A model generated the notes under the pieces. That model was not told where the DNA came from. It saw only the letters and a list, made by a program, of their open reading frames with translations, and searched no databases. Positions 23,781 through 63,242 of a DNA stretch of 64,000 nucleotides are shown here, piece after piece. The stretch is taken from positions 124,001-188,000 of the forward strand of contig JANBVI010000074.1 in NCBI GenBank assembly GCA_024239075.1, written 5' to 3'. The stretch's first letter is position 1. Each line of letters begins with the position of its first letter. The DNA is from Fischerella sp. CENA71. Its GTDB lineage: Bacteria > Cyanobacteriota > Cyanobacteriia > Cyanobacteriales > Nostocaceae. Both the position numbers and the translations under genes were made by a program.

Positions 23781-26700
23781 ATGCAACAACCTCAAACAGA
23801 AACAATCACGCTAGAAGATATTGTCATTACCGAGGAATTGTCTCATCGAAATCCTCGTACTGCAAACTTAGTACAAGAAAATCAGGCATTGCACGCGTTG
23901 GCGCGGCAGTTGGTGAATACGCCGGAAACGATGCTTCAGAGCCTAGTTGACATGGCACTAGAATTGTGCGTAGCCGGAAGCACAGGCGTGAGCTTGCTGG
24001 AAACAACGACCGATGGTGAAGAAGTTTTTCGCTGGAATGTATTAGCAGGAGCATTTGAGCAGTACGTTGGCGGCACTACACCCCGCAACTTTAGCCCCTG
24101 TGGTACCTGTCTTGATCGCGGTACTCCTCAGCTTTATTCTCATCCCGAACGTTATTTTACTTATTTACAGGCAGCAAACACTCCCATTGTTGAAGGGTTA
24201 GTGCTACCACTGATTGCGGATAACTATGCCCTCGGCACGATCTGGATTATGTCGCACGATGAGCAATGGCAATTTGACAGTGAAGATGTGCGGGTGATGA
24301 CGAGTTTGGCAGATTTTACTGCTGCTGCACTGCTACTGAATCAGCGCCAAACTCACCAATTGCTGACAGCAAATGTCCGACTAGAAGCTGAGGTTAAAGA
24401 ACGTCAACTTGCCGAAGAATCAGCGCGGGATAATGAGGCATACTTCCGAGCGATCGCTGATTTGATTCCCGATTTGCTCTGGCGTAATGATTTAAATGGC
24501 AAAGCGAACTGGTACAATCAACGCTGGCTAGACTATACTGGGCAAACCCTAGAAGAAGCACAAGGGGATGGCTGGTTAGAAGTGATTCATCCGAGCGATC
24601 GCGCCCAGTCCTCTATCAACTTTCATAATGCTGTCAAGGAGCGCCGTCCCCTGCGACAGGAACACCGCATCAAAGGCACAGATGGCAAATATCGCTGGTT
24701 TTTGGTGCAGGCAGATCCTGTAATTGAGGCGGACGGACACATCATTTGGTTTGGAGCCGCCACTGACATTCATGAACAGCGGACTGCACTTGAACAATTG
24801 CGCTCTTCGGAAAAACTATTGCAGGCGATGATTGAGAATCTGCCAGGTGGTGCGGCGTTTGTTGTTGACCACAATCTGCGCTATTTGCTAGCCGAAGGTG
24901 AAGCACTTCATACCGCAGGATTCAAATCCGCAGATTTAGTTGGCAAAACTATTTTTGAGGCGCTTCCAATGGAATTAGCGGCATCTTACGAGGTGATGTA
25001 TCGCAGAGCGCTTGCTGGTGAAACCTTTGAGCATGAGCATAATGTACATGATCACTGGTACATCTCACGCGGAACGCCGCTGCGTTCTGCAAACGGCGAA
25101 GTGTATGCCGTGCTTGCTGTTTCCTATGATATTACTGATCGCAAGGGTGCTGAAGCAGCCTTGCGTGAATCTGAAGAAAAATATCGATCGCTGTTCACGG
25201 CAATGGATCAAGGCTTCTGCATCATCGAAAAGGTCGAAACCGCTGCTGGTCAACCGAGCGACTTCCGATACCTGACGGTGAACCCGGCATTTGAGCGTCA
25301 CACGGGGATGAACGATGTCGTTGGCAAGACGATCCGCGAGTTCGTACCCGATCTTGAGCAAAGGATAATGGATCTCTACGACAAAGTGGTCCGAACAGGA
25401 CAGCATCAGCAGTTCGAGGATTATGTCTCAGCACTCGACCTGTGGATAGAAGCGGAGCTCTTCCCGGCTCAAACGCCAGGTCAGATTGCCGTCCTGTTCA
25501 GCAATATCTCAGAGCGTAAACGCGCTGAAGAACAATTACGTCGCGCTGCTGAAATGGATGCCTTCCGAGTCAAGCTATCGGATGTATTGCGATCGCTCGC
25601 TGACCCAGTGCAAATTCCGGTAGAAGCGTGTCGTCTGCTGGGCGAGCATTTGAGCGTTGACCGCGCTTACTACGTCGAAGTCAACGAGGCAGAGAGTTAT
25701 GCCCGCGTCAATCACGATTATTTGCGCGGCGACGTGCCTTCCCTCGTCGGCGTTTTTCGGTTAGCGGATTTTGGCTGGACTGTGCCGTTGCTTCAAAGAG
25801 GCGAAACCATTATCGTCACAGATGCTGAAACCACAGACATCATTCCCGCAAATGATCGCGAGGCGATGGCGGCTGTCAGGATTGCCGCGCATATCTCCAT
25901 ACCGCTGATCAAAGCGGGCGCGTTGGTGGGCGCGCTCTGCGTTACCGAATCTGCGCCACGCGAGTGGTCAGAAACAGAAATCGAACTCGTGCGCGAAACC
26001 GCCGAACGCATCTGGGCGGCGATCGAACGCGCTCGTGCCGAAGTAGCCTTGCGTGAATCGGAAATTCAACGGATTCGAGAACAAGCCGCCCGTGAGGAAG
26101 AACGCCAAAGAGTCGAGGCTTTGGCAGAACTTGATCGCGCCAAAACGCTATTTTTCAGCAACGTCAGCCACGAATTCCGCACACCGCTGACACTGTTACT
26201 CGCTCCCCTGCAAGATGCCTTGAGCGATCGCGTCGATCCTCTTTCTCCATCTCAACGGAAACGGCTAGAACTGGTGCATCACAATAGCTTGCGCCTGCTG
26301 AAACTAGTTAATACCCTGCTCGACTTCTCCCGCATTGAAGCTAATCGAATGCAAGCCGTTTACGAACCGATCGATTTGGCAATGTTTACGGTCGAGTTAG
26401 CCTCAGTGTTTCGTTCCGCCATTGAGCGGGCAGGACTACGGCTAATAGTCGATTGTCCACCAATGAGAGAGCCTGTATACATAGACCGGGAAATGTGGGA
26501 GAAAATTGTCCTCAATCTCCTCTCTAATGCCTTCAAGTTCACCTTTGAGGGCGAAATCATCGTCAGGCTGTATCTTAGTGATGACACTCATGTGACGCTA
26601 CAGGTAAAAGATACAGGTACGGGGATTCCATCCGAGGAACTGCCCCATCTGTTTGAGCGATTTTACCACATGCCAAGGACACAGGCGCGGACTCATGAAG

Positions 26701-28433
26701 GATCTGGTATTGGTTTAGCTTTGGTGCAGGAGTTAATTCAACTACATGGTGGAACCGTAGAAGTCAGCAGCGTCGTAGGACAGGGAACCTGCTTTACCGT
26801 CACAATTCCTCTTGGGACAGCACACCTGCCAAGTGAGCGCATCCAAGCCGCACGTACCCTAGCATCAACAGTATTTGGTGCAGTCCCTTATGTTGAGGAG
26901 GCAGAGCGCTGGCTACCAGAAGAAGACACGGGGACGCGGAGACGCGGAGACGCAGGAAATCAAGAGGACACGGGGACGTGGGGACGCGGAGACGCAGGAA
27001 ATCAAGAGGACACGGGGACGCGGGGACGCGGAGACGCAGGAAATCAAGAGGACACGGGGACGCGGGGACGCGGAGACGCAGGAAATCAAGAAGACACGGG
27101 GACGCGGGGACGCGGAGACGCAGGAAATCAAGAGGACACGGGGACGTGGGGACGCGGAGACACGGGGACTATTTTTGATAATTTCTCCGTATCACCGCAT
27201 CTCAATGTCTCCGCGTCTTTGCAAGCGTCACCGCGTCTCCCAACGCCAGGTGCTACAACGGGACGCCAGTCGCTACAACGGAGGGAACCTCCGCAACGCG
27301 CTGGCTCGGAAACCCCCGCAACGCACTGGCTCCTCTCCGCGTCTGCCCATGTCCTCCTTGTCGATGACAACGCCGACATGCGCGATTACCTGAAGCGGAT
27401 ATTAAGCAAACACGTTACAGTAGAAGCTGTTGCGGATGGAGCAGCTGCACTGGCTGCTGTTCAAGAACGAGTGCCAGATTTGGTTCTTTCTGATGTGATG
27501 ATGCCAGGGTTAAATGGCTTTGAGTTATTAAAAGCATTGCGTGCCGACGCGCGGACAAAAGAAATACCAATTATTCTGCTTTCTGCTCGTGCTGGAGAAG
27601 AGTTTGTGATTGAAGGACTTGAAGCTGGGGCTGATGACTATTTGATTAAACCCTTTTCTGCCCAAGAACTTGTCACCCGTGTAAATGCCCATCTGCAAAT
27701 GGCACACCTACGCTCTGAAGCACTCCGCCAAGAAAGAACAATTAGCCGCAGGAAGGATGAGTTACTATCAACAGTTTCCCACGAACTTAATACTCCTCTG
27801 GTTGCCATTCTCGGTTGGACGCGGTTACTGCGTGGCAGCCCGTCTAATCAATCCATCCTCATGAAAGCTTTGGAGACAATCGAACGTAATGCTACTTTGC
27901 AAGCCAAACTTATTCAAGATTTACTGGATATCTCGCGGATCACTGCGGGCAAAATCAGTCTGAATCTTGAGCCAGTTGAACTGCAAGGAGTGATTGAAAC
28001 TGCGATCGCCACAGTGCGTCAATCTCTGGAAACCAAAGATATTCGCCTCAATTGTATATTTAATCCTTTATCAATAATAGTTGAAGGCGATCCTGATCGT
28101 TTACAGCAAATTATGCTGAATTTACTTACCAACGCTGTCAAATTTACTGCTCAGGGAGGAAGCATTGAAGTTGGTGTTGACATATGTGAAAATCAAGCCC
28201 AGATTGTGGTGAGTGATAATGGCATTGGTATCAGCACCGAGTTGCTACCCTATATTTTTGATACTTTTCGTCAGTCTGAGAGCGCACAATCAAAAGGCGG
28301 ATTAGGACTGGGACTGGCGATCGCTCGTCATTTGATAGAACTCCACAGTGGGACTATTAATGCTGCAAGTCCTGGAGTTGGGCAGGGTACAACTTTTATT
28401 GTTAAGTTGCCATTAATAAGGGTTAATCTTTAA
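23781..28433 (+). CDS. Large hybrid histidine kinase (GAF-PAS3-GAF-HK-REC-HK)
   Basis: 1550 residues. The order is GAF (35-200, with SPCGTCLDRGTPQLYSHPER), three PAS/PAC modules (about 217-575), a second GAF (580-745) and HisKA with SHEFRTPLT near 796. HATPase (NLLSNAFKFT, DTGTGIPSEELP, about 895-1015) and a repeat linker (1048-1129) come next, then a receiver (HVLLVDDNADMRDYL near 1190; LSDVMMPGLNGF). The protein ends with HisKA (SHELNTPLVAILGW near 1333) and HATPase to the end. It shares the C-terminal layout with the kinase at 20323 and its N-terminal GAF with the kinase at 36606. No membrane helices are seen; ligands are unknown. Confidence 0.9.
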   Translation: MQQPQTETITLEDIVITEELSHRNPRTANLVQENQALHALARQLVNTPETMLQSLVDMALELCVAGSTGVSLLETTTDGEEVFRWNVLAGAFEQYVGGTTPRNFSPCGTCLDRGTPQLYSHPERYFTYLQAANTPIVEGLVLPLIADNYALGTIWIMSHDEQWQFDSEDVRVMTSLADFTAAALLLNQRQTHQLLTANVRLEAEVKERQLAEESARDNEAYFRAIADLIPDLLWRNDLNGKANWYNQRWLDYTGQTLEEAQGDGWLEVIHPSDRAQSSINFHNAVKERRPLRQEHRIKGTDGKYRWFLVQADPVIEADGHIIWFGAATDIHEQRTALEQLRSSEKLLQAMIENLPGGAAFVVDHNLRYLLAEGEALHTAGFKSADLVGKTIFEALPMELAASYEVMYRRALAGETFEHEHNVHDHWYISRGTPLRSANGEVYAVLAVSYDITDRKGAEAALRESEEKYRSLFTAMDQGFCIIEKVETAAGQPSDFRYLTVNPAFERHTGMNDVVGKTIREFVPDLEQRIMDLYDKVVRTGQHQQFEDYVSALDLWIEAELFPAQTPGQIAVLFSNISERKRAEEQLRRAAEMDAFRVKLSDVLRSLADPVQIPVEACRLLGEHLSVDRAYYVEVNEAESYARVNHDYLRGDVPSLVGVFRLADFGWTVPLLQRGETIIVTDAETTDIIPANDREAMAAVRIAAHISIPLIKAGALVGALCVTESAPREWSETEIELVRETAERIWAAIERARAEVALRESEIQRIREQAAREEERQRVEALAELDRAKTLFFSNVSHEFRTPLTLLLAPLQDALSDRVDPLSPSQRKRLELVHHNSLRLLKLVNTLLDFSRIEANRMQAVYEPIDLAMFTVELASVFRSAIERAGLRLIVDCPPMREPVYIDREMWEKIVLNLLSNAFKFTFEGEIIVRLYLSDDTHVTLQVKDTGTGIPSEELPHLFERFYHMPRTQARTHEGSGIGLALVQELIQLHGGTVEVSSVVGQGTCFTVTIPLGTAHLPSERIQAARTLASTVFGAVPYVEEAERWLPEEDTGTRRRGDAGNQEDTGTWGRGDAGNQEDTGTRGRGDAGNQEDTGTRGRGDAGNQEDTGTRGRGDAGNQEDTGTWGRGDTGTIFDNFSVSPHLNVSASLQASPRLPTPGATTGRQSLQRREPPQRAGSETPATHWLLSASAHVLLVDDNADMRDYLKRILSKHVTVEAVADGAAALAAVQERVPDLVLSDVMMPGLNGFELLKALRADARTKEIPIILLSARAGEEFVIEGLEAGADDYLIKPFSAQELVTRVNAHLQMAHLRSEALRQERTISRRKDELLSTVSHELNTPLVAILGWTRLLRGSPSNQSILMKALETIERNATLQAKLIQDLLDISRITAGKISLNLEPVELQGVIETAIATVRQSLETKDIRLNCIFNPLSIIVEGDPDRLQQIMLNLLTNAVKFTAQGGSIEVGVDICENQAQIVVSDNGIGISTELLPYIFDTFRQSESAQSKGGLGLGLAIARHLIELHSGTINAASPGVGQGTTFIVKLPLIRVNL
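26922..27167 (+). repeat. 42-bp tandem repeat array encoding a 14-residue unit
   Basis: Five full copies and one partial copy of a 14-residue unit, EDTGTRGRGDAGNQ, in the kinase linker between HATPase and receiver. Copies differ by Arg/Trp or Arg/Gly changes only, so expansion is recent. The DNA unit is built from the gacacggggacgcgg element seen elsewhere in the window. Confidence 0.9.
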
Positions 28434-46828: not shown

Positions 46829-47083
46829 GGGTGTAGGGGTGTAGGAGTATAAAGGTATAGGGGTATAGGGGGATTTTGGCATAAAGTTGACAAAGTATGA
46901 TTTTTAGCCAAGAATCTGTTTTAACATGCCAGTTATAAATTATTGCAGTAAAAATTTATCTTTATAGGAGAACATCTCAACTAAAATACTATCCAAAAAT
47001 TATGTTAAACAACATGTGATTAAAACCGACTTTTTTGTCGTTTACTCTACTTAATTTCCTCTAACTTGTTGATCAGAGGGCAT
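46829..47083. repeat. Spacer with ggtgtaggggtata tandem words
   Basis: 46829-46872 carries repeated gggtgtagg / ggtataggg words, an STRR-like tract. The rest is AT-rich leader for the next gene; no terminator hairpin is obvious. Confidence 0.45.
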
Positions 47084-50000
47084 ATGTGGCAAAAAGAAAA
47101 AAAAGATAACTCAATAGTCAGTTTGGCGTTGTTATTAGCATTAGCAACAACGCCCATGGCAGTTTCTATTGTGGTGTCAGACTTTGCACTGGCGCAATCT
47201 ACCAATGTTCCGTCTTTTCCGTTACTCAAAGAAGTGCCAAGTGGGACTAGTGTGCGGATTGATGGTTCAAATAGCATGAACATGATTAATCAAACCATGA
47301 AAACACGGTTTGAAAATCAGTTTCCTGGTGTGAAGGTGGAAGTTGCTACTAATGGTGCAGATAAGGCGCTGCAAGCTTTGCAAGCAGGAGAAATAGATAT
47401 AGCCGCGATTAGTCGTGGTTTAACGCCAGAAGAAAAAAACCAAGGTTTAGAACAGTTCCGCCTACGTCGAGAAAAGATTGCGATCATAGTTGGTAAAGAT
47501 AATCCTTTCAAAGGAAACCTGACTAACCAAGAATTTGCGAAAATTTTTCGAGGAGAAATTACAGATTGGTCAGAAGTTGGAGGAGCTAAGGGTAAAATCC
47601 GGGTTATTGATCGTCCAGCTAATAGCGATGTCCGTCAGGCTTTTCGCAGTTACCCAGCTTTCGAGAAAGCCAAATTTACAACTGGTGCAACTGCAACTCA
47701 GCTAAACGAAGATAGTACAGTTGAAGTCGTCAAACAGTTGGGTAAAAACGGTATTAGCTATGTTTTGGCTAATCAGGTATCGAAACTTGAAGGTGTGCGA
47801 TCGCTCAAGGTTGATCGAACTTTACCCAGCAATTCTAGATATCCTTTTTCACAGCCTTTAGTATACGTCTATAAGAAAAATCCCAGTCTCAATGTCGCTT
47901 CTTTTCTTGGCTTCGTCACAAATACCCCAGGTGAAGATGCAGTAGAAGCAGCCAGAAAAATCGAAGCAGACGCGATCGCAGCTATAGTATCTGCTGACTC
48001 CCAAACAGCAACTACAACCACTAGCGCCACCACTCCACCTAGCACAGATACTACATCTGCTGCTAATGTCTCACCAACAACAGTTGAAAACAATATCACC
48101 ACAGTTCAAGCAGATACTACAAATAGTTCTACGTTAACTTCTCCTGTCGAGAGCAATCAAACAAACCCAGAACAACAAGTTTTATTTTGGTCACTTTTGG
48201 CACTCCTACTTGGAGCTAGTGCCGGATTTTTACTGTGGTTTTTACGAAGAGGACGCCCAGCCGTTGCAGATGCCAAAGTACAAACAGCAGACGTGACTAT
48301 TGACTCTACTCCTCCTGCTTCCTCTTCAGATGTCACCACGATGTTATCACAGACGACAAATGTCAACTCTGCGACTCAGACAACATCTGGTGATGTGACA
48401 CAAGATGCAAATAGCATCCCATCTGAGCAAAATACAGCCAAGGATTTAACTCCTACTGTTGCTGCTAGCATTGCTGGTGCTACTGCAATTGGAACAGGAA
48501 GCACATTAGTATCAAAATGGTCTGAGAAAAATGCAGAAATCACTGTCAAAGATCAGGATGTTGCTAATGATCAAGATGTGCAAACAGTAGTTACAGACAT
48601 CAATCATTCATCTTCTTCTGTACAAATACCAGCAGCTGATAATTCGGGATTAGACTTAGAAGCGCCTGTGACTGTTGTCAATTCCTCCTATCCTCAAGTG
48701 TCGCCAAATGGTCAGATTCCATCTGAGCCACAACCAACATTAGTACAAGACAATACTCAGATACTATCTGCTCAACACTCAGATGTTACAGAGCAAATGC
48801 TATCAAATGGTGATGACACTGAAGTAAAAGTACCGACACAAGCACCATCGGTAAATATTTATTCTCCCTTACCAGATGTTTGGGAAGATGCAACCATAAT
48901 ACAAACACCATTACCATCACCATCTCAGGTAACAGAAGTTACATCTACGCAAGAAACGCCGACTGTTCCTCAGCAGTCGGAATTAGAGTTGCTAGATGTC
49001 ACAGACGTTACATCTACGCAGGATACGCCAACTGTTCTTCAACAGCCGGAATTAGAGTTGCTAGATGTCACAGAAGCTACATCTATGCAGGAAACGCCGA
49101 CTGTTCTTCAGCAGCCGGAATTAGAGTTGCCAGATGTCACAGAAGCTACATCTACGCAGGAAACGCCAACTGTTCTTCAGCAGCCGGAACTAGACTTGCC
49201 AGATGTCACAGAAGCTACATCTACGCAGGAAACCCCGACGCTTCTGCAACAGCCTGACACAAATCAGCAACCTTTAGATTTGCAAACGCCATCAATAGTT
49301 ATTAATACCGAACTTCCTCATTTACCTGATGTTTGGGAAAGTACATCTATTCCACAAGATAGTACTGTTGACTCAGAGATAGAAACTGCTCCACAGCAAC
49401 CAGGAGTATCCAAGGATTTATTAGATAAAGTCGCAGATACAGCCGAACCAAGCGTTAATGTCACAGAAGCAGTAGCCCAAACTACCCCAACACCAGATCC
49501 CTCTGCAACTACCTCTCATCCCACAGAGGAAGTCTCATCGACAGTTGTAGGAATTGGTTCTTGGGCTAGTATTTATGGGATTAGCAACAATCAAAACCAG
49601 AATCCTAACTCAGCACAAACTCAGATTGGGGATAACACTAATCCAGTAACCACAGCATCGGCTACACCCGAAAATGTAGAATCAGAAAATATTATTGTCC
49701 TCACATCACGTACTCCGAAATGGGCTTACGTTTCTTGGCAAGTATCTGATGAAGCCAAACAAGCACTGCGATCGCAAGGTGGTTCTCAGCTTACACTACG
49801 CCTATATGATGTCACTGATATTGACCTGAGTTATCAAAATCCTGTGTTGGTGCAGCAGTACGAATGTGAAGAGACTACAGAAGATCGCTATGTAGCTATC
49901 CCGACAGGCGATCGCAATTATATGGCTGAAATTGGTTATACCACAGCAGATAATAACTGGTTATCACTTGCACGTTCCGCACCTGCTCGTGTTTTTAGTC

Positions 50001-50242
50001 GCCCAGAAAAAGATTTCTGGTTTATTGCTGATGCAGAGTTAATTATTCACGGAGCTACTGAACCGGGTTCAAGTGTTGCTGTTGCTGGTCATACCATTAA
50101 ACTGAAACCAGATGGTACTTTCCACCTGCGTATTCCCTTTACAGACAGTTTAATTGATTATGTTATGACCGCAACAAATGCTAATGGTGAGCGAGCTAAA
50201 ACCATTCGTATGCACTTTTCTCAGGAAAATCCCGAAGAATAG
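47084..50242 (+). CDS. PstS-like binding domain fused through a membrane helix to DUF4912
   Basis: About 1052 residues. After a signal-like helix (LALLLALATTPMAVSIVVSDFALA) comes a phosphate-binding-protein-type domain, about 45-305 (VRIDGSNSMNMINQTMKTRFE, FRGEITDWSEVGG, ANSDVRQAF). A Thr/Ser-rich linker and a transmembrane helix follow (LFWSLLALLLGASAGFLLWF, about 367-387), then a Thr/Gln/Pro-rich stretch of about 480 residues with 23-residue repeats and a C-terminal DUF4912 domain (868-1045, ITPKWAYVSWQ-type motif, GDRNYMAEIG). The first TTG (47066) is less likely than the ATG at 47084, which follows AGAGGG. The topology puts binding domain and DUF4912 on opposite sides of a membrane. No pst transport genes adjoin. 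Confidence 0.8.
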   Translation: MWQKEKKDNSIVSLALLLALATTPMAVSIVVSDFALAQSTNVPSFPLLKEVPSGTSVRIDGSNSMNMINQTMKTRFENQFPGVKVEVATNGADKALQALQAGEIDIAAISRGLTPEEKNQGLEQFRLRREKIAIIVGKDNPFKGNLTNQEFAKIFRGEITDWSEVGGAKGKIRVIDRPANSDVRQAFRSYPAFEKAKFTTGATATQLNEDSTVEVVKQLGKNGISYVLANQVSKLEGVRSLKVDRTLPSNSRYPFSQPLVYVYKKNPSLNVASFLGFVTNTPGEDAVEAARKIEADAIAAIVSADSQTATTTTSATTPPSTDTTSAANVSPTTVENNITTVQADTTNSSTLTSPVESNQTNPEQQVLFWSLLALLLGASAGFLLWFLRRGRPAVADAKVQTADVTIDSTPPASSSDVTTMLSQTTNVNSATQTTSGDVTQDANSIPSEQNTAKDLTPTVAASIAGATAIGTGSTLVSKWSEKNAEITVKDQDVANDQDVQTVVTDINHSSSSVQIPAADNSGLDLEAPVTVVNSSYPQVSPNGQIPSEPQPTLVQDNTQILSAQHSDVTEQMLSNGDDTEVKVPTQAPSVNIYSPLPDVWEDATIIQTPLPSPSQVTEVTSTQETPTVPQQSELELLDVTDVTSTQDTPTVLQQPELELLDVTEATSMQETPTVLQQPELELPDVTEATSTQETPTVLQQPELDLPDVTEATSTQETPTLLQQPDTNQQPLDLQTPSIVINTELPHLPDVWESTSIPQDSTVDSEIETAPQQPGVSKDLLDKVADTAEPSVNVTEAVAQTTPTPDPSATTSHPTEEVSSTVVGIGSWASIYGISNNQNQNPNSAQTQIGDNTNPVTTASATPENVESENIIVLTSRTPKWAYVSWQVSDEAKQALRSQGGSQLTLRLYDVTDIDLSYQNPVLVQQYECEETTEDRYVAIPTGDRNYMAEIGYTTADNNWLSLARSAPARVFSRPEKDFWFIADAELIIHGATEPGSSVAVAGHTIKLKPDGTFHLRIPFTDSLIDYVMTATNANGERAKTIRMHFSQENPEE
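48929..49253 (+). repeat. 69-bp in-frame tandem repeats
   Basis: Four full and one partial copies of a 23-residue unit (VTEATSTQETPTVLQQPELE plus LPD) in the low-complexity part of the PstS-DUF4912 protein. Copies differ at a few positions only (Val/Ala, Leu/Pro, Gln/Met). A cytoplasmic linker of variable length is likely. Confidence 0.85.
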
Positions 50243-55281: not shown

Positions 55282-55475
55282 TCCTTGCAGCAACATCCGC
55301 CTCCACGTTTGGATGTTTCGCGCAGCCTGTAGCAACATCCACCTTCCTTGCAGCAACATCCGCCTTCACGTTTAGGTGTTTCGCGCAGCCTGTAGCAACA
55401 TCCGCCTTCCTTGCAGCAACATCCGCCTTCACGTTTAGGTGTTTCGCGCAGCCTGTAGCAACATCCGCCTTCACG
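55282..55475. repeat. 63-bp tandem repeat array 2
   Basis: Partial unit 55282-55326, full units from 55327 and 55390, partial unit from 55453. Unit ctgtagcaacatccgccttc ... gtttcgcgcagc, clearly the same family as array 1 at 34036-34242 (aacttcc replaced by aacatcc). It lies about 290 bp beyond the DGR template repeat. Frames through it (e.g. 72 codons on the minus strand) are repeat artefacts. Confidence 0.85.
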
Positions 55476-55764
55476 TTATGTGTAAATTAAATTACAATAA
55501 GGTAGGTTGAAAACCCTTAACCTAAAGGCATGTCCATCCACCACACTGGCTCACCTATCAAAATCAATTTGGTGAACTACTACTATTGCCAGGAGCCTGC
55601 AATTTTGTTTGTAGAGTTGAGCAACTGTTCGGCTTACACCTACCAAGCTACCCAACTCAGGTTTATTTTCGGATACTGTTACCAGTATCACAGGAATAGG
55701 TCTGGACTCTTCTTCGGCACGCTCGACGCATTCCCATACGCCGACTCTGGCACAGAAGAGCGCT

Positions 55765-55890
55765 CGCAGCGGAAACAACAACCCGAAACCCGATGTTGTT
55801 GTTCCTATTGTCCGGATTGTCGTTGTTGTTACGACACGCAGAACGGCAATTCCTTGGATTGTTGTTCCAGGAACCACCGCGCAGCATCCG
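55765..55890 (-). repeat. DGR template repeat (TR)
   Basis: A 126-bp sequence matching the 3' end of the target gene (57487-57612) along its whole length. The TR begins CGGATGCTGCGCGGTGG and ends GTTTCCGCTGCG. In its core all 19 differences from the VR lie at TR adenines; 30 adenines occur in the core (AAC/AAT-rich codons). The last 30 bases, beginning at ATCGGG, are identical in TR and VR, as expected for the homing-initiation end. It starts 19 bp after the reverse-transcriptase stop codon and is expected to be transcribed as the template RNA. Confidence 0.95.
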
Positions 55891-55908
55891 GAAGTGCCTA
55901 CCCCTTCT

Positions 55909-56967
55909 TCACCCTCTCGTAAATACAAGAGATGCGAATATCTTTTGACGTAGCTGCCAACTATCTCCATGAGCAAGGTGAGCTTGCCAACTTTGAATTG
56001 AGCAATCCACGTCTTGAAATTCGATTTTACCTTGAGCATAGTCCCTTTGGAGCTGCTGTAATCTCCGCCGTCCCCTTCGCAAGTTCTCAGAACGTACTCG
56101 GATTGTATTTGGCAGAATACGAAATCCTAGAAAACTTGCCCCGTGTCGGGTTTCAAATAATTGGCTTTTCACTGGATGAAGCTTTAGCCTGAGATTAACC
56201 AAGTATTCTTCTATTGCTACTCGTGCTTCACTGAGAAATCCATAATCATCTGCAAACAAAGCAAAATCATCAACGTAGCGGACATATTTTTTTGCTTTGA
56301 GTTGCTCTTTAATAAAGTGGTCTAAACTATTGAGGTAGACATTCGCGAAGAATTGACTACTAAGGTTGCCTATTGGTAATCCTTTTCGGCGTTGTAAAGG
56401 TGATAATAAATTATCGCCAAGAAAATGTTCCATCACAGATTCTTGAGGATTACTCCTATTGATAATCGTATCTATTAACCACAAAGTATCGTCACATTTG
56501 ATTTTGCGACGCAAAAGGGATTTGAGAATTTCATGGTCAATACTGGGAAAATATTTCTTAATATCGCACTGCAAAATATAGCGACTAGAACGAGCAAAGC
56601 TAGTAAAGCGACGCAAAGCTTTGTGAGTACCAAAACCTAAACGATTAGCATAGGAATCAGCAATAAAAGTTCTCTCGAAAATTGGAACTATGATATTGCA
56701 CAAAGCATGATGTACTACTCTGTCTCGGTACGGTGCAGCAGAAATCAGGCGAGGTTTGGGTTCACAAATTTCAAAAGTTTTATAGCGTCCTGGGTGGTAA
56801 GTTTTTGATTCTAATTCACTCTTGATTTTTGCTAGTTTTGCTTCCCGGTTATAATTAAATTTCAAAATCTTCTCGCGAAATCGTTTCCCTCTTTGCGCCT
56901 GATGTGCTGCTAACACTAAATTGGCAAAATCTGTAATTTGTGGGTAAAGATTTCCGTATCGTTTCAT
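55909..56967 (-). CDS. DGR reverse transcriptase
   Basis: 352 residues with the retroelement RT motifs: [38 protein letters not shown] (motif A aspartate), [18 protein letters not shown] (the xxxSQ form usual in DGR enzymes) and [14 protein letters not shown] (catalytic YVDD near residue 230). There is no maturase, endonuclease or RNase H domain, which fits a DGR enzyme and excludes a group II intron ORF. The start overlaps the avd stop by 4 bp (ATGA), so the two are translationally coupled. It copies the TR RNA with errors at adenines into cDNA that replaces the VR. Confidence 0.95.
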
Positions 56968-57311
56968 CTGTTACCCTTTTGGCGTTGTTGTCTCATCCAA
57001 CCACCCAGTTCATTACCAATTTCATTGATCAGTTGACCAGCATATTCATATCGTCGCTCATCGAATTGTTGGAAATCAAATAATAATCTGGTTTGATGAC
57101 GCAAGGTGTCTAACTTAGCGTTTAACAATTCGAGTTGAGGCAACTTTTCTTGAGTGTATCGTGCTAAAATCAAGCCTTCCAGCAGGTCATAAAGTCCCGC
57201 TATCATTCTGTCCCCTAAAGTAAATTTATGTTTTCTGGGCAGACGATTTAAAATCGGCACATACCATTTAATCAGGTCATAGGTCTTTTGAATAATCGGT
57301 AAATCTTGCAT
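56964..57311 (-). CDS. avd: Avd, DGR accessory variability protein
   Basis: 115 residues, all helical: [32 protein letters not shown], then [10 protein letters not shown] and an amphipathic C-terminal pair of helices with basic tail ([11 protein letters not shown]). This is the pattern of Avd proteins, which form a pentameric barrel that binds RT and template RNA and is needed for adenine-directed mutagenesis. It lies between the target and RT genes and overlaps the RT start by 4 bp. The size is that of known Avd proteins. Confidence 0.9.
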
Positions 57312-57410
57312 TTTGTCAAAAACAAATTTTTAGTCTGTATAATTGTCTTGACAAAATTTACCACTTCTTAGATACTATTGATAGTCGTGCAAAAATTAAA
57401 AAATTATCGA

Positions 57411-57423
57411 CCGCCTTCGGCGG
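57411..57423 (-). terminator. Small hairpin between target gene and avd
   Basis: ccgcc-ttc-ggcgg; on the minus strand it is followed by tcgataaTTTTTTaaTTTTTG. It begins about 55 bp past the target stop codon and 100 bp before avd. It may partly terminate transcription and so set the RT level relative to the target. In some DGRs a hairpin just past the VR helps homing; this one is farther away. Confidence 0.4.
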
Positions 57424-57477
57424 AGGGTAAGAGTAAAAGAAAAAGGGTAGAGAGCTAAAGGGCAAAAGTGTAAAGAA

Positions 57478-59034
57478 TTATGTCCCCGCAGCGGAAACAA
57501 CAACCCGAAACCCGATGAGGCCGTCCCCACCGTCCGGATAGCCGTTGAAGTAACGACACGCAGAACGGCAATACCCCGGATTGAAGCTCCAGGAACCACC
57601 GCGCAGCATCCGTGCATAATTATGCCTATCATTAGTATTAATATCTATCCAAGCACTACCATCTTTTGGGGCGTACTCGTAACTGCTGTGCCAATGGTCA
57701 GCACACCATTCCCAGACTAACCCGTGCATATCAAACAAACCAAAGGTATTCGCTACTTTAAAGCTGCCTACTGATGTTGTCTGATTCCTGGACTTACCTT
57801 TAGGACTATCACCGTAGGTTACTTCAGCATTGTAATTTGCTAAATTAGATGTGATAGTTCCCCCAAAGTGAAACGGAGTTGTCGTGCCTGCTCTACAAGC
57901 GTACTCCCACTCAGCTTCACTAGGAAGTCGGTAGTGTTTTCCCGTATGTTTGGATAGTCTATCACAAAACTCCACCGCTTCATACCAAGAAATTTGTTCT
58001 ACTGGTAAATTATCGCCTTTAAAGTGTGATGGGTCGGGGTCAAGTTCTCGGTTGATTTGCTCTAGAGCAGCCACAACCTGCCATTGTGCCTGGGTTATGG
58101 GATATTTACCCATAAAAAAAGATGGAACAGTCACTTCATGCTGGGGACTTTCGTTATGGTAACGTTCCGCTTCAGTTTCCGGTGAACCCATCATAAATGT
58201 ACCACCTGGGATGGACACCATTTCTAAAGTGATATTATTACCAAGGTTTTCGGTGAAGTATTTTGCTTGTTTAGTCTCGCGTTTAGTTATTTTTCCTTTG
58301 GCGTTAACAGTGACAACCTCAAATGTAAAAGTTTGAGCAGGAATAAAAGAAAAAGTCACCTCAGCAATCGTCGGCGAATTTCCTAGTTGATGACGTAGCT
58401 TGTTCAGTTGTGCTTTTGCGCCTGAGTAATCACCACGAGCTGATTGTCCCATGCTTTGAGCTAAGGTTAATAAAGGCTCAAAGCCCGCATTTTCTAAAGG
58501 TTTTTCTAAAGTTTCCACCAAAAATGCTATTTGTGGCCAGTCATCTTGGTGTCGCTGCTGGAGCATTTTGGCTAATTTTTCGGTAATTTGTTTAGCTGCT
58601 TGGGTTGGTTCAACATAAGATAAAGCAGTCCATTTTTGAGCTTGAATTAGATTGTGATCTCCATGATTAATTTGTAGTTCAATATAATTCAGCAAAAAAT
58701 TGGATAGTTGTTTTAAACGCTCGGAAGCGAGATGACTTAACAGCACTTGTCGCACTGTAATATCTATTTCATAAAGCTCTTGACCCACCTCATAGCAAAA
58801 ACCAGACAAAAGCAAATCCGTTACCGCTACCCAAGGAACTTGCAGCTTCAATTCAGTAATTAAATAATCGCGTAAACGATACAGTAAATCAGGAGTCAAA
58901 GCCAAAGGAAAAGCCGCATGACGAGCAAATTCTAGGTGTGCAGGGGTAACGTGTCTACTCTGACTCCAAGCATCGATACGTTCTTTTGCTGCTTGAATTT
59001 TCGGGTCTGGTTCTAGTGAGGTTGAGTGAATCAT
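57478..59034 (-). CDS. DGR target protein with FGE/C-type-lectin-fold domain
   Basis: 518 residues. About 1-260 is a helical region (YLITELKLQVPWVAVTDLLL, QAAKQITEKLAKMLQQRH) of unknown fold. From about 265 to the end is a formylglycine-generating-enzyme-type domain (MVSIPGGTFMMGSPETEAER, ISWYEAVEFCDRLSKHTGK, YRLPSEAEWEYACRAGT, FGLFDMHGLVWEWCADHW). This fold is the known scaffold of DGR-diversified proteins. The last 43 residues, from RMLRGGSW to the end, are the VR. The start overlaps the vWA stop by 4 bp. The molecule is presumably the ligand-binding or effector component of the MoxR-vWA system; its ligand is unknown. Confidence 0.93.
   Translation of the reverse strand: MIHSTSLEPDPKIQAAKERIDAWSQSRHVTPAHLEFARHAAFPLALTPDLLYRLRDYLITELKLQVPWVAVTDLLLSGFCYEVGQELYEIDITVRQVLLSHLASERLKQLSNFLLNYIELQINHGDHNLIQAQKWTALSYVEPTQAAKQITEKLAKMLQQRHQDDWPQIAFLVETLEKPLENAGFEPLLTLAQSMGQSARGDYSGAKAQLNKLRHQLGNSPTIAEVTFSFIPAQTFTFEVVTVNAKGKITKRETKQAKYFTENLGNNITLEMVSIPGGTFMMGSPETEAERYHNESPQHEVTVPSFFMGKYPITQAQWQVVAALEQINRELDPDPSHFKGDNLPVEQISWYEAVEFCDRLSKHTGKHYRLPSEAEWEYACRAGTTTPFHFGGTITSNLANYNAEVTYGDSPKGKSRNQTTSVGSFKVANTFGLFDMHGLVWEWCADHWHSSYEYAPKDGSAWIDINTNDRHNYARMLRGGSWSFNPGYCRSACRYFNGYPDGGDGLIGFRVVVSAAGT
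57487..57612 (-). repeat. DGR variable repeat (VR) in the target gene
   Basis: 126 bp at the 3' end of the target gene. Compared with the TR it has 19 changes, all at TR adenines: 10 to G, 8 to T, 1 to C. They alter 14 codons and 13 amino acids; Asn, Arg and Asp codons of the TR become Ser, Phe, Gly, Tyr, Asp and Leu. All TR bases that are not adenine are unchanged. Confidence 0.95.
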
Positions 59035-60170
59035 CGTAATACTCTCAGAGCATTTTCAAACCCAGATAAATCAGCAGGAAACATTTGAATTATATTGGCA
59101 ATAGCTTCAGAAGTTGTATTTTGCCAATAAATTTTTGGCAGGGGATTTATCCAAACTAAAGCTTTACATCGCTGTCGTAAATTTTGCAATAATTCTTGCG
59201 TTTTATCAATTCTTTTCATCATGAAATTACCACGGGCTGCTCCCCCATCACTAAAAATTAAGATAATTGTGCGATGAGGATGAAAATCTTGAATTACCTG
59301 ATTCACAGGTATTTCAGTTTCAAATTGGGGGTCACAATAAAACATACGCCTGGGATAATTATTGAAGTAATAACAATTGTTTGTGTCTACACACCCAATT
59401 TCCCTAGCGGTTTCGACTAATAAACCTGATAAAACATGAAAAGGCTGCATAGAGCCTTTTTGATCAATTAATAAGACAAGTTTACCGGATTTGAGTAAAC
59501 GAGGTCTTTGTACGGGATGAAAAAATTTCCCGTGCTTTTTAATTTGCTCTATAGTAGCAGCCACATCTAACTCTCGCCTCAGTCCTTGTCGCGTCAGACG
59601 ATGTAAACTATCCCAACCTTGCTGCATTTGTTGTTTGGTTACAGGTAAATACTCTTTAAGTAAACCAGAAGGTTTGAAAGTAGATAATTCTTGGGCTTTT
59701 CCGATTCGTACTGCTTGAACAATTTTCTCAGCATCACCAGTATTTGTATCTATACTTGTATCTATAGGAGGAGGAAAGAAGAAGTATTCAGGTTCATTGT
59801 CAGAATATTGAGGTGGTTTATCAGGTGGTTTATTGTTAATTGGTTCTGGAAGTAAATTATCTGGTTTTTTGAAAATAGGTTCGGGTTTCTCTTTGACTAA
59901 TGTTTTTCTAGTAAAAACATCATCAAAAATATCATCAAAAATGACTGAAAACTCCAGTCGTTGACTAGCAGATTTCACCCATAAAAGTTTACATAATTGT
60001 TTGAGACTGTCTCGACTAGGAACTCCTAAACTAAAAACTGATGCTTCGGAACTGTCATAATCATGTAATAATACCTGTAACAATAAATTATAATCATCCA
60101 CACCAATCGGAAATTTTGCCTCCCGCAATCGGATGAATAATTTATAGAGAGGTAAGTTACATTCATTCAT
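59031..60170 (-). CDS. vWA-domain protein of MoxR-vWA type
   Basis: 379 residues. An N-terminal helical region (LYKLFIRLREAKFPIGVDDYNLLLQVLL) is followed by a Pro-rich, acidic linker (95-150) and a C-terminal von Willebrand A domain. The domain has KLVLLIDQKGSM near 232, the Mg-site-like FSDGGAARGN and VWINPLPK. The DxSxS metal motif reads DxKGS, a change seen in some vWA proteins that may alter or abolish metal binding. In MoxR-vWA systems this subunit links the AAA+ ATPase to its client. It overlaps the MoxR remnant by 8 bp and the target gene by 4 bp. Confidence 0.82.
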   Translation of the reverse strand: MNECNLPLYKLFIRLREAKFPIGVDDYNLLLQVLLHDYDSSEASVFSLGVPSRDSLKQLCKLLWVKSASQRLEFSVIFDDIFDDVFTRKTLVKEKPEPIFKKPDNLLPEPINNKPPDKPPQYSDNEPEYFFFPPPIDTSIDTNTGDAEKIVQAVRIGKAQELSTFKPSGLLKEYLPVTKQQMQQGWDSLHRLTRQGLRRELDVAATIEQIKKHGKFFHPVQRPRLLKSGKLVLLIDQKGSMQPFHVLSGLLVETAREIGCVDTNNCYYFNNYPRRMFYCDPQFETEIPVNQVIQDFHPHRTIILIFSDGGAARGNFMMKRIDKTQELLQNLRQRCKALVWINPLPKIYWQNTTSEAIANIIQMFPADLSGFENALRVLR

Positions 60171-60633
60171 GACCTAATTCCCCAGCAAACTCACAGTCAT
60201 CTCGACTTTTAAACAATGTATTGGGGTAAGGTATTTGTTCTTGCAAAAGCAAAGTTTCTAAATCTTTAGCATTATTTGAATTTAATTCCAGTGCATTTAA
60301 CCAATCTATAAATTCACTCGTACTAACTTTTTTCCCAAACTCCCCTTTATATTCCTCCATTTTTTGACGAACATCACAAAACCTGCTAACAGATGTCTCT
60401 ATGATTTGTTTTGTCCATTTTCTTCTGTTACCAAAACGTGCTGTAACAATTTCTTGTAATTTATCTGGCTTCGGAAACTCTATATAGCAATAAATACACC
60501 GCCTCAAAAAAGCATCTGATAATTTTCTTTGACCATTACTAGTAATAAAAATAATTGGTTGATAATCTGGATTAACTCTAATTTCTTCTCCAGTTTCTTT
60601 AACAAAAAACCGTTTTTCTTCCAGTTCTAAGAG
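60163..60633 (-). pseudogene. MoxR AAA+ ATPase, C-terminal half only
   Basis: About 155 MoxR-like residues remain: LLELEEKRFFVKETGEEIRVN, then IIFITSNGQRKLSDAFLRRCIYCYIEFP (sensor 1 and arginine finger region) and the helical C-terminal lid. Walker A and Walker B, which should lie just upstream, are missing. The homology stops at 60633, where an IS-like terminus (gggtgtttgaaaagttttga) begins. The frame continues to a TTG at 60660 through IS sequence. Without Walker motifs this cannot hydrolyse ATP. It was the first gene of the operon with the vWA and DGR target genes. Confidence 0.8.
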
Positions 60634-60770
60634 GGTGTTTGAAAAGTTTTGATGGGTCAAAATTTATGCTAATCGCCTCAGCATGATGCGAATCATGGCA
60701 AGGTAGATAAACGTCTCTGATGTTTCGGGTAATAACTCATAGTCTCTAATCTTCCAAATAAATGCGCTTA
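60634..60770 (-). mobile_element. IS5-type transposase 3' end fragment
   Basis: Read leftward this encodes RVSAFIWKIRDYELLPETSE then TFIYLAMIRIMLRRLA and TAA, the typical C-terminus of IS5-family transposases of Nostocales, followed by a terminus ending at the moxR breakpoint. Only the last 30 or so codons are left. It is the likely cause of the moxR truncation. A second IS5-type piece (62102-62227), upstream in the same gene order, may come from the same copy. Confidence 0.7.
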
Positions 60771-60819: not shown

Positions 60820-61020
60820 ATGAAGAATACTTTAGTTTTACCTAAGTGGTTAGACTATACTACTTGGGATAGTCCGCGTTGGAAAACAGCGATCGCCCGT
60901 AAGTCCATGTCGATGCCAATGCGAATGGCACGCGAAGCCTCTGTGATTACAACAGCCACCTCCGTCTTAGATATGGGCTGTGGTCGCGGCAACGATGTCG
61001 ATTTCTTGAGACAACAAAAG
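60820..61020 (+). pseudogene. Methyltransferase N-terminal stub
   Basis: The first 65 or so codons of a longer frame (60820-61467). TAIARKSMSMPMRMAREAS and SVLDMGCGRGNDVDFL match the start of the putative SAM methyltransferases found with DNA phosphorothioation genes (pattern aRhktAi.R..lS.Pvr...e...l.....vlDyGCGrG.Dv..L). Motif I is complete but the rest of the fold is missing. The frame then fuses to Tn3 transposase sequence. It is a broken gene. Confidence 0.5.
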
Positions 61021-62035
61021 ATCCAAAAAGGCTACCGCAGCCATCAACGTCAAGTGCAAATTCTCTTGGGGTATCGCCGTGCATCACCTTTGGATCTTCT
61101 AGCCTTAGAGCAATGGCTGTTAGAGCGGGCCCTAGAACATGATAAGCCAATGCTGCTTTTTGAAATGACTTGCCAGCATCTCCAGCACAATAAAATTGTT
61201 CGCATTGGAACCACGCGAATCGCTAAAATGGTTTCGACGGCTCGGCAGCAAGCTCAAGAATTCATTTATCAGACACTCAGTCCCTTGCTTAGTCAAGAGC
61301 TATGCAATATTTTGGATAAGTTACTTGAGGTGGACGATACCTTGAAGCGAACTCGCTTGTCCTGGTTGCAGCGAACACCTAATTTGATCTGCTGGGACTG
61401 CAATTCTCGCCCCGGATTCGCGACCTGCCAGACCAACAGCTTTATCGCACAAGCCAGATTCAGTTAGATAATTACCCAAAACTCAAAAGTTATTTCCAAG
61501 AAGTCATTAATTTTGAGCGTATCCTGACGCACTGGGATGAAATGCTTCGATTAGCTGGCTCATTAAAAATGGGATGGGTTACTGCTTCACTTATAGTGCA
61601 AAAGCTTCAAGCTTATCCACGACAACATCCACTCACTCGCGCACTTATTGAATATGGCAGGCTAATTAAAACTATTCACATTTTACGTTGGTATGCCTCG
61701 GAAGTAAATCGACGCAGAATCAATCGGCAACTCAATAAAGGGGAAGCTTTGCATAGCTTACGCTCTCATCTGTGCTATGCCAACTCTGGCGAAATTCGGG
61801 GACAATCTGATGAGCAACTCCGATTGGCAGGTAGGCTGCTTAAACCTCGTTACCAATGCGATCATCATTTGGAACACAGTCTACATTGAGAGAGTCATGC
61901 AGCAGCTTCAACAAGAGGGATGGATTCTTAACAACGAAGACTTAATGCACATTTGGCCAACCCGTCATGCTCATATCAATGTTTATGGGAAATATCATTT
62001 TGAGCTTGAGTATGTTGGAAAGAAACGTCCTTTCA
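61021..62035 (+). pseudogene. Tn3-family transposase, internally deleted and frameshifted
   Basis: Three frames carry successive parts of one transposase. The N-terminal DUF4158 part (QILLGYRRASPLDLLALEQWLLERALEHDKP, KIVRIGTTRIAKMV) runs to about 61390. The next frame has a middle part (LRLAGSLKMGWVTASLIVQKLQ, RIN-R-Q-L-N-K-GE-ALHSLR). The last has the catalytic C-terminal end (NAIIIWNTVYIERVMQQLQQEG, THAHINVYGKYHFEL-type). Most of the DDE region between middle and end is missing, since the full protein is about 1000 residues. It cannot be active. Confidence 0.75.
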
Positions 62036-62101
62036 GAACCCTGTCCCAGTCTGCTTTCTAGGCTTAGCGACCAAAATTTCTCCATTGCTATACAAAGGCG
62101 T

Positions 62102-62227
62102 TAATCGACGCGACAACGTGGAGTGATCTGGAACTTGTAGCTCAATCCCCATGAGCATGAATAGCGACTCCAAAAACCCCTCGGCTTGCCGCCCAGGTAA
62201 ATGAAACACCCCTTGGATTGTCCCCAT
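62102..62227 (-). mobile_element. IS5-type transposase internal fragment
   Basis: MGTIQGVFHLPGRQAEGFLE and LFMLMGIELQVPDHSTLSRR match the internal N-terminal half of IS5-type transposases (family form atmgtIq.vFhLPgRqaegFl.SL). About 42 codons remain, with a REP-like repeat at the 5' edge (62228-62262). Same family and direction as 60634-60770. Confidence 0.65.
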
Positions 62228-62262
62228 TGTCGCGTAGACGCTCTTAGCGGCTTGTCGTCAGA

Positions 62263-63236
62263 CATCGCCACATCAGAGTAATAATTTAAATCTTCTGCAC
62301 GCATTAATTCTAAGTGTGTAAAAGCTCGAATTGCGCTAAAAAAATGAGTTTTTATTGCTTCAGTCGTTCTGACCATAAATTGACCAATACCACATAGTTG
62401 TTTAATAGCTCTGTGGTAACACTCAATTCCCCAATGAATAGAATGTAGTTCCTTAAATTCTGTTCTTGAAATTGACTTTAGTGTATCTTTTTCAGGAGTA
62501 TACATGATGTAATATCTGGAAGTTTCGTTTTTGAAACTTCTCTGAAATACCCTTACTTGACCAAAATTTTTCAGATACACTATTAAACCATCTTCGGGAA
62601 TTTCTAAATTTTGGACTTGGGTAAAATTTTTACCATCAACCGAACACGAGCGATTTCTAGCACACCAGTTAAAAACCCTAATTGCTTGTTTTTCAGTAAC
62701 TTCAGGTTTTCTTGGCTGGAATACCAAGCATCAGTAGTGACTGTTTTCGGCTTTAAACCCCACTCCAAAACTTCATTAATCATCTCTCGTAAATAGTCAT
62801 TTTTTGTTTTCCCCTCCTGTTTGTTATAAATGCGATAATTTACAGGTACAGATTTACCTGACGAATCCGTGTAGTACAAGGTGATTAACTGAATTCCTTT
62901 GACGGCACGGTGATGTCTACCTGAATGATAGTAACCAATTAATTCTGTGATTTTTGGATCACTATGAGGCTTATCAATTACCGTATCATCTCCGCTTAAA
63001 GTACCTCCAATTAAATTGATATTTGGCTTAATTTCTTCAAATAAGTCCTTAGGTTCGTATCGCTCACGCAGTAAAAATCTGTTGACGCTATCATGAGATA
63101 TATCTTCCATTATCTCGGCCAGACGTGTGCAACCTTGATACTTTGATTCTGCCAGTAGAAACAGAGTATAAGTGTTCAAGTCACATTTAGCGGTTGATGG
63201 TTTAGTAATTGCTCTGATTGTCCGAACCCTAAACAT
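62263..63236 (-). mobile_element. IS701-like transposase, frameshifted
   Basis: The N-terminal part (FRVRTIRAITKPSTAKCDLN, FLLAESKYQGCTRLAEIM, GGTLSGDDTVIDKPHS with a DDE aspartate, TVTTDAWYSSQENL with the second aspartate) runs to about 62650. There the frame shifts by one base and continues in another frame (RNRSCSVDGKNFTQVQNLEI, IHWGIECYHRAIKQLCGIGQ with the catalytic Glu). Homology ends at HLELMRAEDLNYYSDV, next to a REP-like repeat. Disrupted and truncated; inactive unless programmed frameshifting occurs. Confidence 0.7.
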
Positions 63237-63242
63237 AGTCAA

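Follow-up and report, generated by a model that had tools for sequence, protein, structure and literature searches.

A diversity-generating retroelement with an adjoining structured RNA in the genome of Fischerella sp. CENA71, beside a broken conflict operon

Organization of the retroelement

We analyzed a stretch of 64,000 nucleotides from the cyanobacterium Fischerella sp. CENA71 (contig JANBVI010000074.1, positions 124,001 to 188,000; hereafter "the window"), which carries a diversity-generating retroelement (DGR). Along the minus strand, positions 55609-60660 hold the C-terminal half of a MoxR ATPase, a vWA protein, the target gene of the DGR, the accessory protein Avd, the reverse transcriptase (RT), the template repeat (TR) and a structured RNA (Table 1). 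Below, the genome of the window is referred to as G000 and its contig as C74, with G001, G003 and G004 being congeners. An earlier note, made from the letters of the window alone, had described a complete DGR here and placed TR, RT, Avd, and the target with its variable repeat (VR) on the minus strand, and these positions were confirmed.

Table 1. Features of the locus and related loci elsewhere (positions in the window unless a locus is named)
Feature	Position	Strand	Details
Structured RNA RT-14 (RF02921) / model R1	55609..55764	-	Rfam 49.4 bits, gathering score 48.1; R1 169.5 bits
RNA helices	55763-55704, 55751-55717, 55744-55723, 55691-55671, 55658-55614, 55640-55631	-	six helices
TR	55765..55890	-	126 nt, 31 A
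Purine-rich motif 5' of TR, GAAGAAGGGGTAGGCA	55895..55910	-	read by eye; similar in most relatives
DGR RT	55909..56967	-	352 aa; IGNLSSQ and YVDD; RVT_1 match 3.5e-22
Avd	56964..57311	-	115 aa; bAvd match; NCBIfam NF033474 141 bits, cut-off 80
GC hairpin CCGCC-GAA-GGCGG, then T-rich DNA	57411..57423	-	after the tract; cruciform or terminator
Pyrimidine tract, candidate target-side cis element	57424..57477	-	directly after the target's stop codon
VR	57487..57612	-	3' end of target gene
Target gene	57478..59034	-	518 aa; C-terminal FGE/C-type-lectin domain (271-512); FGE-sulfatase match 7.8e-55
vWA (CoxE-like) protein of ternary conflict system	59031..60170	-	
MoxR AAA+ ATPase, C-terminal half	60163..60660	-	homology to intact relative stops at 60633
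Mobile-element remnants next to the break in moxR	60820..63242		Tn3 TnpA piece and dnd-methyltransferase piece; IS701 transposase
Open reading frame fusing dnd-related methyltransferase start to Tn3 TnpA piece	60820-61467	+	
IS701 transposase in two open reading frames	62101-63242	-	
TIR-FGE fusion gene carrying a VR-like end and the tract	L058:7169-8530 = G000 C63:91195-91932	-	
RT-less TR-VR-RNA cassettes on FGE targets	L095, L096, L098, L100, L101, L103, L105, L111, L114, L120		
Solo loci, VR-like FGE gene end directly into RT-14-like RNA	L097, L102, L108, L109, L110, L113, L126		

A base-level comparison of TR and VR aligned 126 nt without a gap, and all 19 mismatches fell on TR adenines (A to G, 10; A to T, 8; A to C, 1), exactly as the earlier note had stated; the 95 non-adenine positions were identical. 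Because 31 of the 126 TR bases are adenines, the chance that 19 random mismatch positions would all fall on adenines is 9e-15. The pair was recovered independently by a repeat search blind to adenines, and identity extends 2 nt beyond the 126 nt, adding one further A to G change. The VR is in frame and stops 9 nt (stop codon included) short of the end of the target gene. Read in the target's frame, the TR has 18 variable codons, none of which can become a stop codon, allowing about 2e17 possible proteins.

DGR RTs are characterized by the motif [I/V/L]GxxxSQ. The residues I, G, N, L, S and Q of this motif in the window's RT, together with Y, V, D and D, were invariant in an alignment of 16 RTs comprising that of the window and 15 relatives (62-97% identical to it), and this alignment and the RVT_1, bAvd and NF033474 matches bear out the earlier reading of motif and Avd as those of a DGR. 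The target aligns with Treponema TvpA, and the VR lands on its RVLRGGSW...GFR region. The hallmarks of a DGR are thus all present, namely an adenine-only TR/VR pattern, an RT with motif and YVDD, Avd, and a VR inside a C-type-lectin/FGE target (assigned by sequence), and every component is intact. Judged from its sequence, the element is a complete, well-preserved DGR and, by the identity of its RT to cyanobacterial RTs, an ordinary member of the cyanobacterial DGR clade.

A family search for FGE genes in G000 gave nine matches, consisting of seven other FGE genes, the target and the TR itself. Of the seven, the TIR-FGE gene on contig C63 is the only one similar to the TR, and an ungapped comparison showed 33 of the 95 non-adenine positions to be changed. 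When gaps were allowed, its end showed 16 non-adenine changes over 109 nt against the window's TR and 7 over 121 nt against the TR of G003. Because it is closer to the latter, the C63 gene looks like an orphan target of another DGR.

Relatives and recency of retrohoming

We searched for the RT in 60 genomes covering the species' own genome, genus, family and order, and found a match at 1e-20 in 23 of them, with a single match in G000. TR/VR pairs were located de novo in 25 of 28 loci, window included; no pair was found in L054, L055 and L056, where the RT is cut short. Across 32 TR/VR pairs from the relatives and the window, TR adenines account for 483 of 495 mismatches and other bases for 12; there were 11 gap columns. 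These counts used uniform alignment scores and omitted the last 8 nt of each TR, on pairs located with a finder that favors adenine mismatches. An earlier count of 455 of 469 (29 pairs) came from that finder itself and was replaced by the uniform scoring. The same finder located the TR/VR pairs of the cassettes and solo loci and of the remoter RT loci described below.

The congener G004 carries an orthologous locus, whose RT is 97% identical to that of the window, and the VRs of both G004 and G001 differ from the window's VR. The VR of G004 differs from its own TR at adenines only (15 of 15). The TRs of G000 and G004 differ at four positions, and at all four each VR agrees with its own TR, which indicates a transfer of sequence between the two repeats after the lineages split. 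At two of these sites the VR of G001 and the TR of G024 share the base of G004, so that G000 is the changed one there. In G001 the RT is cut at residue 140, the target frame is disrupted, no TR was found in the DGR locus, and the VR has five non-adenine changes among its 23 differences from the TR of G004, as a frozen copy would show.

Between G000 and G004, dN/dS was 0.096 for the RT, 0.10 for Avd, 0.078 for a neighboring ABC1-type kinase, 0.356 for the target and 0.32 for the vWA protein, values that place RT and Avd, like the kinase, under purifying selection. Since the congeners' VRs differ, TR and VR share lineage-specific changes, and RT and Avd are under such selection, we conclude that retrohoming was recent. 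The earlier note had proposed this from the lack of non-adenine drift, and had suggested comparing VRs between sister strains; that comparison upholds the proposal, the non-adenine changes of G001 sitting with a truncated RT.

A structured RNA 3' of the template repeat

The roughly 150 nt directly 3' of the TR correspond to the Rfam RNA RT-14 (fold z -3.9), whose gathering score the window passes marginally. Among 14 relative loci, the Rfam model gave one score of 63.4 and five of 42-47. We also used a model of our own, R1, built from 24 sequences that include the window, so that its score for the window is not independent. The underlying alignment (A2) holds 24 of 25 sequences, L039 being omitted for an insertion in one hairpin. 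It contains 38 base pairs in six helices, with 96.8% of cells paired and 26 of the 38 pairs changed on both sides; it has 144 double-change cells, compared with 42.1 +- 6.1 in shuffled alignments and at most 34 in slid controls.

R1 found a single copy in G000. We ran it on 80 RT loci of named genomes, with E up to 0.02 for the remoter 49. It matched 30 of the 31 closer loci (L139-L169; RT identity 61-74%), missing L145, and 18 of the remoter 49, in records titled Nitrospirae, Verrucomicrobia, Deltaproteobacteria, Phycisphaerae, Desantisbacteria, Cyanobium and others; among those without a match was L202 from Hydrocoleum (partial RT, 67% identity). In 11 of the 18 remoter matches the RNA lies 128-158 nt past the RT, the place of a TR plus the RNA, and in seven it lies elsewhere. 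A further alignment of 40 sequences (A5), fitted to the model and drawn from the 48 matched loci without L141, L143, L144, L146, L149, L163, L168 and L179, had 37 of 38 pairs changed on both sides and 384 double-change cells compared with 94.4 when shuffled. By this sequence evidence, RT-14 is here a strongly covarying structure, and we assign it to the 3' portion of the template RNA.

In the Bordetella phage DGR, the spacer RNA has been reported to recruit the RT-Avd complex and to prime cDNA synthesis (PMC12875486; here and below, statements on published systems refer to excerpts of the cited papers). RT-14 probably does the same. Among the papers listed in a search of an open-access library, we found no publication linking RT-14 to DGRs.

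Two further observations concern this region. At L039:11610-11784, a stretch resembling a repetitive extragenic palindrome, recognized by eye, is inserted in a hairpin loop of the DGR RNA. Just beyond the DGR RNA of the window, positions 55282-55472 hold three tandem copies with a spacing of 63 nt. Among the closer loci, L151, L161 and L168, in records titled Thiomargarita, Acidobacteria and Chloroflexaceae, carry RTs 62-68% identical to the window's family, and these reflect either transfer or mis-binned contigs.

A pyrimidine tract after the variable repeat

Most of 32 VR flanks consist of GAGGAC-like DNA followed by 50-60 nt in which the coding strand is rich in pyrimidines. A perfect GC stem of at least 5 bp follows the tract in 18 of the 32; among the rest, the stem is interrupted or made of A+T, or no stem was found. 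The highest pyrimidine share of any 40-mer within 90 nt averaged 0.87 in VR flanks and 0.52 (maximum 0.575) in TR flanks. At a threshold of 0.80, the tract was present in 39 of 41 VR flanks and in 10 of 730 other ends of open reading frames, and after none of the TRs measured; this measure was picked after viewing the flanks, and these are non-independent samples from related species. The 41 flanks include nine of the ten RT-less cassettes described below (the VR end of L114 was not placed exactly) and none from the remoter RT loci. The 730 control frames were taken mechanically with FGE-like ones removed, replacing a set of 289 that contained DGR targets. Purine interruptions within the tract recur at lags of 7-8 (z 7.2, 11.5) and 15-16 (z 6.7, 6.6).

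We also examined the tract in FGE genes of three genomes, where 30 of 34 FGE matches were read (four had no locus) against a panel of 35 TRs. All 15 genes in which at least 0.87 of the non-adenine positions match one of these TRs have the tract, compared with 4 of the 15 others (L239, L242, L247 and L248). Among these four, L242 belongs to a DGR with a truncated TR, L247 resembles the C63 gene, L248 is a fragment of 98 aa and L239 has an internal stop. Within G000, the tract occurs in one of the seven other FGE genes, namely the C63 gene that still carries a VR-like end. Outside L139-L169, a TR/VR pair is present at 16 loci, of which eight reach 0.78. Each of these eight has the RNA at its usual place; of the eleven loci so arranged, the remaining three are L177 (0.68), L183 (0.65) and L173, which has no TR/VR pair. 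We rejected base pairing between the tract and the purine motif that precedes the TR, as it was no better than with shuffled tracts (mean z 0.36, 32 pairs).

The tract and hairpin probably mark the target for homing, as a counterpart of the initiation of mutagenic homing sequence plus hairpin. The main rival to this reading is that they are merely the transcription terminator of the target gene, to which the run of T after the hairpin at many loci would fit. However, six of the seven other FGE genes of G000 lack the tract, the seventh being an old DGR target, and in the three genomes the tract accompanies all 15 genes with a TR-matching VR but only 4 of the 15 others, these four being fragments or probable old or other targets. 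Nor is a period of 7-8 nt known as a feature of terminators. We therefore consider termination alone a rather unlikely explanation, although one to be taken seriously. No publication on such a tract was found among the matches listed in the open-access search.

Cassettes without a reverse transcriptase

To our knowledge, the Bordetella phage model is the only one in which the signal that selects a target is well understood. Across 292 genomes of the phylum, R1 gave 43 matches in 27 genomes, and the RT was found at 1e-40 in 40 genomes, 22 of them outside the class of G000 with 33-41% identity. Sorted by reading, 18 of the 43 matches adjoin an intact RT, four a broken RT or Avd (one of these, G290:C1:4261165, assigned by position only), and ten belong to cassettes of TR, VR and RNA without RT or Avd. 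In seven the VR runs straight into the RNA, three have a TR remnant, and one is a weak match with a target only. The target of cassette L100 has a caspase domain, and that of L103 a kinase-like N-terminus as judged by eye.

Among the genomes with RT-less cassettes, G034, G284, G323 and G094 have an intact RT elsewhere, G270 has only a distant RT, G290, G317 and G009 have DGR-RT fragments plus distant RTs, and no RT was found at 1e-6 in G147 and G036. The cassettes of G270, G147 and G284 have TRs identical over 121 nt, while their VRs differ from the TR at their own adenines only (8, 14 and 12 sites, respectively). As G147 and G270 are now without a DGR RT, either the RT was lost recently or another enzyme serves these cassettes. 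The idea that clean RT-less cassettes occur only where an intact RT exists elsewhere was rejected; it had a Fisher p of 0.019 (34/34 vs 74/87) without L114, and with L114 added and uniform scores the mismatches at adenines were 51/61 vs 74/86, no difference. L114, in a genome with an intact RT, has 17 mismatches at adenines and 10 elsewhere.

The seven solo loci are bordered by the coding flank of a target and, at the opposite end, by the RNA, the layout that recombination between a VR and a TR would leave, and the gene end at L113 resembles an unmutated, Asn-rich TR itself. Taken together, it is conceivable, though we put it forward only tentatively and at somewhat less than an even chance, that a portable RT-14 is all a TR needs to be read in trans by RT-Avd and that tract and hairpin make any VR a target, so that the RT-less cassettes would be non-autonomous elements depending on an RT encoded elsewhere and VR-TR recombination would leave solo scars like solo long terminal repeats. 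Separately, at L116:7000-7403 (minus strand; G323:C1:3866999-3867402), the RT and a truncated TR are separated by a repeat of about 296 nt, of which at least 40 near-identical copies exist. A published account read 70 copies of a DGR1 non-coding RNA element as DGR activity (PMC3610870); the repeat may instead be an insertion resembling a miniature inverted-repeat transposable element.

The conflict operon and its break

In G004 the operon consists of TIR, iSTAND, MoxR (345 aa), vWA, an inserted RRXRR-domain gene, target, Avd, RT and TR. The inserted gene (L037:9535-10272, minus strand) lies between vWA and the target and presumably encodes IscB or an IscB-like protein. In G000, TIR, iSTAND and MoxR residues 1-194 lie at the end of contig C4. 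Placed on the G004 sequence, the C4 and C74 pieces of moxR have 5 bp in common, the pattern expected of a target-site duplication; C74 continues for about 33 kb past the break. Joint MoxR, vWA and iSTAND genes are thus intact in G004; in G000 they are split between C74 and C4 with moxR broken. The split lies beside mobile DNA. Provided that the assembly is correct, the probable sensor and its diversifier are now separated from the effector half.

The FGS domain is the commonest effector domain of iSTAND systems, at 22% (Kaur et al., PMC7159879), and we take it to be the FGE fold. DGR targets have been proposed as antigen sensors (Dore et al., PMC10907252). In Nostoc punctiforme, MoxR, VWA and one target are reported to be expressed together, and in culture both VRs vary at a low level and specifically at adenines. 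Extending these proposals, the target is most likely a variable antigen sensor of a TIR/iSTAND/MoxR/vWA conflict system.

Proposed mechanism and alternatives

With high confidence, we read the window as holding a DGR of the cyanobacterial clade, whose TR is transcribed with RT-14 and which diversifies the probable sensor of a conflict system now cut off from its effector half. The TR would be transcribed together with its 3' structured RNA, which would probably recruit RT-Avd and prime cDNA synthesis as the Bordetella phage spacer does. Copying makes errors at template adenines, and the cDNA takes the place of the VR in the target gene, as the adenine-only pattern and the co-evolution of TR and VR show; the chemistry is inferred. 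In this way 18 codons of the C-type-lectin domain could be rewritten, presumably on the ligand face, with the tract and hairpin just after the VR probably marking the target for homing. An event involving mobile DNA would have split moxR, leaving sensor and diversifier intact.

Several points weigh against this reading. The RT-14 match is barely above the cut-off, the Rfam model is passed by only 1 of 20 relative loci, the wider claim for RT-14 rests on our own model R1, and 31 of the 49 remoter RT loci have no R1 match at 0.02. The split between C4 and C74 depends on a draft assembly of 95 contigs, and the sensor role is a proposal in the published work. Current activity in G000 is unproven from the assembly alone, and conversion from VR to TR could partly explain the concordance between G000 and G004.

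The DGR might also be a recently silenced relic, the break in moxR having ended the operon's use and left the VR frozen. The effector half does lie elsewhere, and the degraded sister locus of G001, with its truncated RT, disrupted target end, five non-adenine changes and no TR found there, is an example of such decay; yet in the window RT, Avd, TR, RNA and target are all intact, the VR has no non-adenine mismatch, and dN/dS of RT and Avd is about 0.10, which makes silencing quite unlikely. Ordinary gene duplication with a chance adenine bias could be suggested by the FGE paralogs common in these genomes, but the confinement of every mismatch to adenines, with all other positions identical, refutes it, and we assign it practically no probability.

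Relation to known systems

The cyanobacterial DGRs described previously (Vallota-Eastman et al. 2020, PMC7517822; for example Nostoc punctiforme Npun_F4889-F4892, PMC12691664) share with the window the kind of RT, Avd, a C-terminal CLec/FGE target and MoxR-vWA neighbors. In contrast to them, moxR is split beside mobile DNA here, and the excerpts of these two accounts mention neither a link to RT-14 nor the tract. Ternary iSTAND systems (Kaur et al. 2020, PMC7159879) and the DGR-diversified sensors of clade 5E (Dore et al. 2024, PMC10907252) resemble the locus of G004, which clusters TIR, iSTAND, MoxR, a CoxE-type vWA and an FGE target alike, whereas only vWA, the FGE target and half of MoxR are still together in the window. 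The Bordetella phage BPP-1 DGR shares TR, VR, Avd, RT and a structured spacer 3' of the TR (PMC12875486), as well as a hairpin reported after the VR (PMC3240598); its spacer lies between TR and RT, whereas in the window TR and RNA come after the RT. RT-14 of Rfam (RF02921) has the same fold and length and likewise adjoins an RT, but its model reaches few relatives, and in the window we assign the RNA to the 3' portion of a DGR template RNA.

The element itself is one more member of a described clade, while the RT-14 link, the tract and the RT-less cassettes are clade-wide features. Three things go beyond the earlier note, namely a structured RNA following the TR, a pyrimidine tract following the VR and the break of the conflict operon inside moxR. 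An RNA family known only by number thereby gains a home and a probable job, the RNA offers an anchor for finding DGR templates and targets without a nearby RT, and a specific DNA element is named as a candidate target-selection signal.

Other observations

Elsewhere in the window, coding minisatellites occur at 26875-27393, inside a large open reading frame (23781-28433) that appears histidine-kinase-like by eye, and at 48880-49257, inside another large open reading frame (47066-50242).

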